Virus record (IMG/VR): IMGVR_UViG_3300042691_019371
Coordinates: 1-23,178 of that record
Length of the DNA: 23,178 bases
DNA from: a virus
Direction: 5' to 3' (one strand)
The notes beneath the pieces are model-generated. The model was not told the origin of the DNA. It ran no database searches and saw only the letters and a program-made list of their open reading frames with translations. Made by a program: the position numbers and the translations under genes. Below, in pieces: positions 20,021-23,151 of the stretch (its first letter is position 1; each line of letters opens with the position of its first letter).

Positions 20021-20754
20021 GCCGCCTCTCGCTTGGGAAGCAGCCTGAACGCGACGCTGGCCATGTCAAGGGCAAGGCGCAGTTCGGACTCCATCACCAA
20101 AACGGCGCGATCATCGCCACCGACCAGTTGGCGAAGGTTCTGGCCTTGGCCGCAAACCGCCTCGATGACTGATGACAGGCGGGTCGCGCCGGTGGCCTGA
20201 TCCAGATGGTGGTGGACGGCGCGGATCGCGTCGGCTGCGTTCTGCTTATCGAAGGCCCGGCGCTTGATCTCCTCGATGGTCGGCTCGATGCCGCCGCCCC
20301 GATTGTCGTTCGCGCTTATGCGAAGGTCGTCTTTCTTGGCCTGGGCGTATAAGTCCGCGTATCGGTTGCCCGTCGTGATCTGAGCCCCGCTTAGGCGGCG
20401 CTGCTTGCGGGTCGTGAGCCATACCCATCCGTCGCGGGTTGTGCCCTCGTGGGCTTTGTCGGTTTCAATCCCGCGACCAGCCAAAAGCCGGGCCTGCTCC
20501 TCGCCCGCGTGGGCCATTTCCTCGTCGGCCAAACGCTCGGCATAGTCCGCCAGCTTGCGGTCGATCAGGTCCATGTCCTCCCGCGCCTGGTTGAGCATCC
20601 GCAGGGCGATGTAGTTTTCGGCCTTGGCCAACGGCCCGGCCTGATGGGCTCCCGGCATGGCCTCGACCCGGGCGCGCAGGATCTCGGCTCGCTTCTCCAG
20701 CTTCTTGCGCTCAAGGGCGGCCTTGGCGTTCGCGTTGGCGGTCAGGCGGGTCAT
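20017..20754 (-). CDS. Phage protein with a DUF6456-like C-terminal region
   Basis: A 245-residue protein. Residues 1-90 are a charged helical region (coiled-coil-like, ERKKLEKRAEILRARVEAMP onward). The second half includes LSGAQITTGNRYADLYAQAK, SANDNRGGG and a C-terminal helix pair with IEAVCGQGQNLRQLVGGDDR and LRLALDMASVAFRLLP. This arrangement, a TxAQxxAGxRxxxDY-type motif followed by a 'V-C-G-x-G' helix and a terminal 'LRLAL' helix, recalls the alphaproteobacterial DUF6456 family, whose role I cannot state. Assignment is tentative. The ATG overlaps the upstream stop (ATGA). Being in the replication module it may be a regulator or replication accessory; that is inference. Its stop lies in the -35 box of the next promoter. 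Confidence 0.7.
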   Translation of the reverse strand: MTRLTANANAKAALERKKLEKRAEILRARVEAMPGAHQAGPLAKAENYIALRMLNQAREDMDLIDRKLADYAERLADEEMAHAGEEQARLLAGRGIETDKAHEGTTRDGWVWLTTRKQRRLSGAQITTGNRYADLYAQAKKDDLRISANDNRGGGIEPTIEEIKRRAFDKQNAADAIRAVHHHLDQATGATRLSSVIEAVCGQGQNLRQLVGGDDRAVLVMESELRLALDMASVAFRLLPKREAA

Positions 20755-20963
20755 GCGGCTTTGTCTCCGGTCTGGCGGGGGAGGTCGTTGGCGGGGCGGA
20801 TCATGGCTTCGTCGGCGGCCTGGATTGCCATGTCGGCGTCGAGCAGGTTCGCCGCAGCCTCACGCAACAGCCGTCCGCCCTCGCAGCCGCGTGGACGACA
20901 CTCGGCCCGGTGGATCAGGCCGTCAGCGATGACGCGAAGCGTAGTATCGTTTGCGGGTTTCAT
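20751..20963 (-). CDS. Small unknown phage protein
   Basis: A 70-residue soluble protein (MKPANDTTLRVIADGLIHRA ...). It is mostly helical, Ala/Arg/Asp-rich, with two cysteines (Cys22, Cys27 in AECRPRGCEGG). It ends RPANDLPRQTGDKAA. It has ATGA overlaps at both ends, with 20017-20754 downstream and with the doubtful frame at 20960-21208 upstream. Its expression may come from the promoter at 21090-21117. No family recognised; third-position GC is high as in its neighbours. Confidence 0.6.
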   Translation of the reverse strand: MKPANDTTLRVIADGLIHRAECRPRGCEGGRLLREAAANLLDADMAIQAADEAMIRPANDLPRQTGDKAA

Positions 20964-21208
20964 GCGGCCTCGGCTTGGCTAGACATGGCGCGATGTTGGA
21001 AACCCTCGCGCGCGGTAACGGACTCGGTGTAACCGTTGTTGGAAAGTCCCTTGAGGGACTTCCAACAACTAACCAAACATCGAGTAGTTATTATAATATA
21101 TATATTTAATATCTCAAACGCGCGCGAGCGCGCGCGCCTGAAAGGTCCGTTACGCCCGTTACGTCGGGCCGTTACGGATGCGTAACGGGGGCCGTAACGC
21201 GGGGTCAT
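20960..21208 (-). CDS. Doubtful 82-residue frame across the regulatory region
   Basis: A frame from the ATG at 21208 to the TGA at 20960 has ATGA overlaps with both the primase stop and the next start, exactly like the true genes around it, which argues for it. Against it, the middle (21070-21117) is AT-rich and encodes an unlikely run (EILNIYIIITTRCLV), the 5' part merely translates the CGTWACG repeats (RYGPRY, RRNGRNG), and third-position GC is lost. It may be a real gene that hosts regulatory DNA, a decayed gene, or chance. No similarity recognised. Confidence 0.25.
   Translation of the reverse strand: MTPRYGPRYASVTARRNGRNGPFRRARSRAFEILNIYIIITTRCLVSCWKSLKGLSNNGYTESVTAREGFQHRAMSSQAEAA
21035..21069. 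repeat. Long hairpin (15-bp stem, one bulge, 4-base loop)
   Basis: Left arm 21035-21050 starts GTTGTTGG; right arm 21055-21069 ends CCAACAAC. The arms pair over 15 bp with a single bulged A and a TTGA loop at 21051-21054. No T-run follows on either strand, so it is not an ordinary terminator. It lies about 15-50 bases downstream of the start site expected from the promoter at 21090-21117, so it would be at the 5' end of that RNA. A partial copy of the arm (TGTTGGAAA) recurs at 20994-21002. Confidence 0.75.
21090..21117 (-). promoter_or_regulatory. Near-consensus sigma70-type promoter in AT-rich DNA
   Basis: On the minus strand TTGAGA (21117-21112) and a perfect TATAAT (21095-21090) are 16 bases apart; shifting the -35 box to TTTGAG gives 17. 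The segment 21080-21116 is almost pure A+T in a genome that is otherwise about two thirds GC. Transcription would run left into 20751-20963 and onward. The same AT-rich block could serve as an unwinding element. Confidence 0.6.
21147..21199. repeat. Cluster of five CGTWACG palindromic repeats
   Basis: CCGTTACG occurs at 21147, 21156 and 21169; the opposite orientation follows as CGTAACGG at 21181 and CGTAACG at 21193. Because CGTTACG and CGTAACG are reverse complements, each copy is an odd palindrome CGT-W-ACG. Spacings are 9-13 bases, near one helical turn. A related GTAACGG lies at 21015-21021 and GTAACCG at 21029-21035, on the other side of the promoter. They look like operator or iteron sites. 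Confidence 0.7.
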
Positions 21209-23151
21209 CGGCGGAACCTCGTCAGGTATTGGCCGCCGTCCGCCGTGATCCACATCCAGCGGTCGCAGCGCCCGATGAAGCCCCGAGTGAGAAGGCCGTC
21301 GCCCTCCCGCTTGATGGCTTGCCGCAGCGCGTTGTCGTCCAGATCAGAGCCCCGCATCCGTCGATACAGGTCCCGGAAGTGGTCGTATTCCACCCCATAG
21401 GCGTTCTGGGGGGCAGGCACGTTCGGCGGGATCATCCCGCCCTTCTGGGCGATCACGTCGTCCAGGACAGTCAGGAACAGGTGCGGCCCGTGCGCCAGTT
21501 GTCGAAGTTGATACCCGGTCTGTGACGATCCAACCTCGGCGGGGACCACGACACAGGAGGTCATGGGCTTGCCGCTGTCATAGGTCCCGATGGTCACGGA
21601 TTGCAGGTCAAAGCCGATCTTTTCGCCGTCTTCGCCGTCCTTGATCTTGACCAGTTTGAGTGAGCGATTGTCCTCCTCGTCTCTGTTGACTTCGATGGCG
21701 CTGTCCACGTTGGCGCGGAGGGACGTGTGCCCCCGCTCCCGGTCTCCAGCGGCGTTCTTGTGGTGGACCCAGAACAGGGCCACGCCGAGCTTCTGCACCT
21801 GATCGCCAAAGGCCAGAAGGCGGCTCATGTCCTCGCTGGAGTTCTCATTGGCACCGGGCGAAGCGCACGACAGGGTGTCTATGAATATCGCGGCGAGGTC
21901 GGGATGCACGGCCTTCCACGACACGATCTCGTGAAGCAAATCCTGGGCGTCGCCGTCCTCGGAGAACAGGTTGACGCGAGAGGGCAGGAGAACGAACGGA
22001 ACGTCCCCGACCACCATGTTCTGCTGCCGATAGGCCCGAAGGCGCTTGACCAGGCCCTTGCCGCCTTCGCCGGCCTGATACAGCACGGCCCCTTTGCGGG
22101 TTGGCTTGCCAAGGAACGGGACGCCCCGTGCGATCGACAGGCCCATGTCCACGGCGAGGAACGACTTGCCCGACCCCGAGGCTCCGAAGATCAGGGCAGA
22201 GTCGCCCTCGAAGATCAGATCCTCGACCAGCCAGTCCTGGCGGATGCCAACGGCGTCAATCTCGCTCCACTGGATCGCGCCGAACCGGCTTTCCGGGGGC
22301 TTGGGCGTCCAGAGCGGGGCGCGGGCGGCAAAGTCAGGCAGGGCCTTCGCGTCATTGCCGTCCGCGATCCAGTCCGACACGTCGCCCTTGACGGGCAGGG
22401 CAGGAAGGGTCAGCACCCTGACGCTGTTGGCATAGTCACGGACGGACGCGGCCACGACGTCGGCGTGCTTGCGGCCCGCCTCGTCGTTGTCGGGCACGAT
22501 CACCACGTCCAGACCGTCGAAATAGGCGGACAGGTCCTCAGGCCACTTCCCGGCCCCTCCGGCATTGCAGGTGGCGGTCAGGCCATGCGAGGACAGAAGG
22601 TCCGCGTCCTTCTCCCCCTCGACCACATAGACCGTTCCCCGGCCCTCCAAGGCGAACAGATCAGCCAGCCGATAGGGAACCTGCTTGACGCCCTTGACCG
22701 ACCAGCTCCAGCCGTCCGGGGCTTGCGGATCGGGGCGGCGCTGGCGGAAGTCCTTGGGCTCCATCCGCACGACCTGAAACACCGTCTTCCCGTCAAGGTC
22801 GGCGTAGTCATAGGTCGCCACGATCTTGCGGGGCGTCGCGTCATTGGCGGGCTTTGGGCGCGTCGGCAGGTGATCCGGGCGAGCGTCGTCAATCTCCAGC
22901 CCGACCATGTTCCGCAGATACCGGACGGCCTCGGAACCCTTCATGCCGTTCTCGCGCTCAACCAGGGCCATGACGCCGCCGCCCGTTCCGGCCTCGTGGT
23001 CACACCAGACGCCCTTGGTCAGATCGACGGACTTGGACCCCCGCGCACCCCAGCGCAGCTCGCCGTTTAAGCGTTGCGCCGGATCGCCCCAGAAGTGGAC
23101 GGCAGCGGCCTCGATGCCGCTGGCGAGTTGGTGCGCGAAGGCCTCGCTCAT
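21205..23151 (-). CDS. Bifunctional primase-helicase (TOPRIM + RecA-like ATPase)
   Basis: A 648-residue protein. Residues 15-65 (RWGARGSKSVDLTKGVWCDH, then EAGTGGG) correspond to the degenerate zinc-finger-like start of phage primases, without the full CHC2 cysteine set. TOPRIM domain at about 172-240: VYVVEGEKDAD (174-184) gives the conserved Glu, and VPDNDEAG (219-226) the DxD. The helicase/ATPase domain starts near 305: Walker A GASGSGKS (323-330), Walker B AIFIDTL (421-427) and a sensor-like WVHHK (461-465). The C-terminal 80 residues may be a small DNA-binding domain (DDNALRQAIKREGDGLL). It should make primers and unwind DNA at the phage fork. It overlaps neighbours by ATGA at both ends and lies beside the repeat cluster at 21147-21199. 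Confidence 0.9.
   Translation of the reverse strand: MSEAFAHQLASGIEAAAVHFWGDPAQRLNGELRWGARGSKSVDLTKGVWCDHEAGTGGGVMALVERENGMKGSEAVRYLRNMVGLEIDDARPDHLPTRPKPANDATPRKIVATYDYADLDGKTVFQVVRMEPKDFRQRRPDPQAPDGWSWSVKGVKQVPYRLADLFALEGRGTVYVVEGEKDADLLSSHGLTATCNAGGAGKWPEDLSAYFDGLDVVIVPDNDEAGRKHADVVAASVRDYANSVRVLTLPALPVKGDVSDWIADGNDAKALPDFAARAPLWTPKPPESRFGAIQWSEIDAVGIRQDWLVEDLIFEGDSALIFGASGSGKSFLAVDMGLSIARGVPFLGKPTRKGAVLYQAGEGGKGLVKRLRAYRQQNMVVGDVPFVLLPSRVNLFSEDGDAQDLLHEIVSWKAVHPDLAAIFIDTLSCASPGANENSSEDMSRLLAFGDQVQKLGVALFWVHHKNAAGDRERGHTSLRANVDSAIEVNRDEEDNRSLKLVKIKDGEDGEKIGFDLQSVTIGTYDSGKPMTSCVVVPAEVGSSQTGYQLRQLAHGPHLFLTVLDDVIAQKGGMIPPNVPAPQNAYGVEYDHFRDLYRRMRGSDLDDNALRQAIKREGDGLLTRGFIGRCDRWMWITADGGQYLTRFRR

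Follow-up and report, generated by a model that had tools for sequence, protein, structure and literature searches.

Setting and elements of the cassette

The window, i.e. the whole stretch of 23,178 nucleotides analysed here, is a complete IMG/VR record (IMGVR_UViG_3300042691_019371) and represents a linear fragment with an overall GC content of 65%. Its minus strand harbours the ORF of a 648-aa primase-helicase (21205–23151), which combines a TOPRIM domain with a RecA-type AAA_25 helicase as evident from profile matches (phrog_239, 4.9e-43; AAA_25, 2.3e-32) and fold matches (T7 gp4, Twinkle and RSF1010 RepA). Directly 3' (downstream) of this gene, which it separates from the late genes, lies one conserved cassette composed of repeats, an AT island and a hairpin. 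The adjacency to the primase-helicase gene, already pointed out in an earlier note on this DNA, was borne out, the 3' side being the one occupied. No match was obtained in Rfam or by DNA search among named phages, and a genome collection scan for relatives retrieved none.

The intergenic array (21148–21199) begins 5 bases past the primase-helicase stop and consists of five CGTWACG palindromes at 21148, 21157, 21170, 21181 and 21193. Their spacings of 9, 13, 11 and 12 nt agree with the near-helical-turn phasing noted before, while the span amounts to 52 rather than 53 bases and contains all five copies present in the 23-kb record. Across 500 dinucleotide shuffles, in which 128 classes of 7-nt odd palindromes were counted per 60-nt span, no class exceeded 3 copies and the CGTW class reached 2 at most, so that the clustering above expectation anticipated for a whole-genome motif count was indeed found. 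The commonest 6-mer in the 260 nt past the stop occurs 6 times, a number equalled in none of 173 windows elsewhere in the record. Two outlying repeat-like copies were recognized by sequence match beyond the AT island: GTAACCG (21029–21035) and GTAACGGAC (21015–21023). The latter is the exact inverse of 21145–21153; the match had been reported before, with its partner placed at 21146–21154.

Iterons and AT island are separated by a GC-alternating run, which was also described earlier and belongs to a 13-nt inverted repeat (21114–21126/21129–21141); a GCGCG run occupies a like position in relatives. The AT island (21079–21118), a candidate DNA unwinding element, has a GC content of 15%, and only 0.02% of the record windows are as AT-rich. 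The sigma-70-like promoter proposed within it was confirmed as the minus-strand match TTGAGA-16-TATAAT (21117–21090), which agrees in 11 of 12 positions and is the sole one in 700 nt (0.2 expected). The hairpin (21035–21069) is likewise real and comprises 15–16 bp with one bulged base (DNA folding, z = -5.5; RNA folding of 20964–21085, z = -4.4). Its former interpretation as the 5' end of a message fared less well: since the hairpin arms of several relatives are inverted copies of their respective repeat, an origin DNA element is more likely than an RNA leader. A terminator scan yielded none at the hairpin, and a CCC-loop-GGG tip, seemingly common to close relatives, was not found in the wider set and discarded as a feature.

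Relatives of the cassette and primase loci

A second phage contig, listed as L008/L115, shares 97% identity over 20987–21395, i.e. the primase end and the whole cassette, and only two short matching pieces beyond. The window has nothing that corresponds to the terminase- and portal-like proteins of this contig, the homology stopping at the cassette edge. Within the array the two sequences differ at 3 positions, all of them in spacers and none in the cores, small as these numbers are. At the mosaic edge (window 20749–20987; L008 410–475), both share an identical 51-nt piece (20749–20799); a 70-aa gene located in the window between this piece and the cassette is absent from L008, and the late genes are unrelated.

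Judged from sequence comparison, five primase relatives retain most or all of the cassette layout with changed repeat letters (primase identity: L250, 62%; L001, 57%; L255, 56%; L252, 55%; L256, 39%). Each has repeats arrayed behind the primase stop, together with a GCGCG run and a hairpin, with repeat core and hairpin sequence being its own in every case. Conservation in relatives, which the earlier note had advised to check, applies to the place of the array beside the primase but not to its core, which reads CGTSACG (L250), TGTWACG or CGGACA. An AT-rich stretch precedes the hairpin in L001, L250 and L255, is weak and without a clear island in L256, and in L252 the most AT-rich window sits at the primase stop. 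A more distant relative (L257, 36% primase identity) carries a GTACCC array. Upstream of the L001 primase, an ORF resembling DNA methyltransferases (L001:20-793, DPPYG motif) was observed, and methyltransferases also adjoin clusters in L021 and L071.

A survey of primase loci, based on 60 primase clusters at 70% identity and 57 dereplicated loci with a 3' side, revealed arrays of at least 5 repeat copies 3' of the primase in 19 of 57 cases (33%) versus 1 of 56 (1.8%) on the 5' side and 9 of 364 (2.5%) after other genes (Fisher p = 5e-12). Stems of at least 10 pairs amounted to 12/56 in the primase survey versus 10/321. The number of copies of the commonest 6-mer in the 260 nt past the primase stop was 7 in L250, 11 in L256 and 6 in L257, and 12, 10 and 8 in Rhizobium phage RHph_X2_25, Roseobacter phage CRP-821 and a Methylobacterium plasmid, respectively. 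This k-mer test was weak for L001 and L255, and the L252 repeat is too degenerate for it; L330 and L371 possess no array behind the primase and gave no outlier. In RHph_X2_25, 14 of the 17 genomic copies of an 8-mer fall in a 437-bp gap. The dense arrays behind the primase/helicase genes consist of GCGTGACA in this gap (L373:3569-4005, 45816-46252), of GCGCAACA in the Methylobacterium plasmid (L374:3587-3734) and of GTATAA in the Roseobacter phage (L372:3530-3704), and all three terminate in hairpins built from inverted repeats.

Scanning viral contigs for three CGTWACG within at most 33 nt yielded at least 120 stretches. Among the matches listed, 62 of 122 loci, some being near-copies of one another, have the cluster within genes of a single protein family, usually about halfway along the gene; the members scanned carry annotations for replication or its initiation, some of them as DUF1376. 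The reversed pattern GCAWTGC likewise gave at least 120 stretches, with 88 of 120 among the matches listed located inside the same initiator family. It is evidently another repeat type of this family and was rejected as a control; the mere number of CGTWACG stretches hence says little, and it is the gene position that counts. Over the entire collection, a non-palindromic control of like composition produced 40 matches; most of these are simple tandem repeats, and none of the 40 lies in the initiator family. DUF1376/phrog_22470-type genes apparently constitute a single initiator family that has several types of repeat; their CGTWACG or GCAWTGC arrays were seen near the middle of the gene in many viral contigs (L010–L249; e.g., L014:10960-10990, L018:4624-4678 and L138:4867-4895), often with a phase of 11–12 bp. 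CGTTACG triplets were also encountered inside a family of 380–450-aa proteins (L011, L022, L024, L030, L060, L068, L080, L086 and L124), whose one scanned member, that of L011, lacked a PHROG match within the threshold applied. At further loci, a CGTWACG cluster is located directly 3' of a primase or helicase gene, as in the window.

Probable replication origin and its candidate reader

The region is most likely a phage replication origin with the five CGTWACG as iterons, since the layout is conserved, arrays are positioned 3' of primases and the same repeat type resides inside initiator genes. As in iteron origins, several short repeats in helical phase are combined with an adjacent AT-rich stretch (21079–21118) as putative unwinding element. 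Of the two readings previously offered, the origin with iterons and unwinding element is thus well supported, while no sigma-70 match was seen at the like place in five relatives. DnaA boxes are common near iteron origins, albeit not universal; no exact one was detected, none lies in the cassette, and the nearest site with one mismatch (21246–21254) is inside the gene, such sites being as numerous as expected by chance. The cumulative GC skew, which had been expected to inflect at the array, shows no turn there in the window, nor at the arrays of three complete relatives, and lends the origin no support.

The iterons are in all likelihood part of an origin that is probably read by the primase-helicase itself, by means of its C-terminal domain. 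For residues 552–648 (21208–21498, minus strand), AF2 predicts a winged helix (pLDDT 80–91 in the whole model, 87 alone), with structural matches at Z of about 9–10 near the winged helices of RosR, MarR and ORC; its sequence profile gave chance-like matches only against solved structures and Pfam. Identities to relatives of 45, 48, 43, 42 and 24% for this domain, versus 63, 58, 55, 57 and 41% for the whole chain, indicate that the winged helix is more divergent than the remainder of the protein. According to the model, we infer that the predicted winged helix would occupy neighbouring iterons along a single face of the DNA. Melting of the AT island would follow, the opened strand would receive the RecA-type ring, and priming would fall to the TOPRIM domain, while the hairpin could, as DNA, assist in keeping strands single or in exposing them. 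Together with the 200 bases that follow it, the gene would form a self-contained initiator-origin unit, mobile between phages.

Alternatively, the same origin could have its iterons read by a separate small initiator, comparable to RepC acting for RepA in RSF1010. The record being a fragment, such a gene may lie in the missing part; moreover, the helicase domain resembles RSF1010 RepA, whose origin another protein reads, and a separate initiator serves other phages that carry CGTWACG arrays. However, the two initiator families sought (DUF1376 and phrog_22470) were not found in eight records of relatives, which reach 68 kb in length, in a search that recovered PF07120 in positive controls. Furthermore, the primase-helicase has its own predicted winged helix, and the array keeps its position right behind the primase-helicase gene. 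A separate initiator is rather unlikely.

We regard it as improbable that the cassette is an operator-controlled sigma-70 promoter for the late genes, with a repressor or activator bound to the phased CGTWACG and the hairpin at the 5' end of the message. The 11/12 promoter match, the location between replication and late genes and the phased palindromes, which would suit regulators as well, speak for it, but a scan for the sigma-70 type found no match at a like place in L250, L001, L252, L255 and L256. In addition, repeat arrays specifically follow primases, the repeat type is found inside initiator genes, and several relatives build their hairpin arms from inverted repeats. This phage may yet make use of the promoter. 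That the repeats are coding sequence of a small overlapping gene (20960–21253, minus strand) is very unlikely: its frame is open in the window and in L008, but at 97% DNA identity this common openness says little, GC-rich DNA yields many open frames (141 listed), and other repeat sequences occupy this region in L001 and L250.

Returning to the origin read by the primase-helicase, a wider proposal can be put forward tentatively, with doubt slightly outweighing confidence: a family of T7 gp4-like primase-helicases in tailed phages would be their own initiators, in which a fast-evolving C-terminal winged helix and the iteron array right after the gene change together; each phage would thereby have a private origin code, and gene and array would travel as a joint mobile cassette. 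No description of this arrangement in such phages was found in the open-access literature and, to our knowledge, most environmental tailed phages have no mapped origin. A simple rule for finding such origins is suggested by the survey, namely to inspect the DNA 3' of a primase gene for short repeats in phase, together with an AT stretch and a hairpin. The survey also offers protein-repeat pairs from which DNA reading by winged helices could be learned. A T7-like primase-helicase may, moreover, do without a separate initiator.

Comparison with known systems

The RSF1010 origin is an iteron-containing oriV, which RepC reads for the helicase RepA. It shares with the present case the iteron origin and a RecA-fold hexameric helicase of RepA type, but RSF1010 divides the helicase, initiator and primase functions among three proteins, which a single polypeptide would combine here. 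In phage SPP1, the repeats and unwinding element of oriL are contained in gene 38, which encodes the initiator gp38 (PMC6316719). Direct repeats and an AT-rich unwinding element for a phage initiator are likewise proposed here, whereas the present array is intergenic, in the gap after the primase-helicase gene. In the pri-rep-ori of Gram-negative PICIs, iterons flank an AT-rich stretch on both sides (PMC6092414) and the primase/Rep gene adjoins, similar to the window, in which the far-side GTAAC copies are weaker; PICIs are, however, satellite islands and have a Rep family of their own.

Origin stem-loops directly behind a primase-helicase gene are known from plasmid pRN1, where the gene, for ORF904, also encodes a C-terminal winged helix (PMC4234260); here, too, the stem-loop structure is conserved and its sequence is not, but pRN1 employs an archaeal-type primase and an SF3 helicase and lacks iterons. 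In P4 alpha, a winged helix binds the origin repeats (PMC4234260), and TOPRIM-type primase, helicase and winged helix (the latter predicted here) are likewise united in one protein, although helicase type and repeat differ and P4 is a satellite. In SaPIs, the Rep helicases use their C-terminal domain to recognize iterons located directly 3' of their own gene, and the SCCmec helicase Cch2 likewise binds downstream of its own gene (PMC7581432). The present protein similarly combines a helicase (AAA_25) with a putative C-terminal DNA-binding domain, predicted as winged helix, and is directly followed by a short-repeat origin candidate. While those systems rely on DUF927 or D5/Primase_Cterm helicases, the tailed-phage protein described here joins a TOPRIM primase and a RecA-type helicase; because of this helicase type, the protein is not assigned to the SaPI Rep, D5 or P4 alpha families. 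By analogy, the primase-helicase and its cassette would function like the known self-loading initiator systems, with a different type of helicase.
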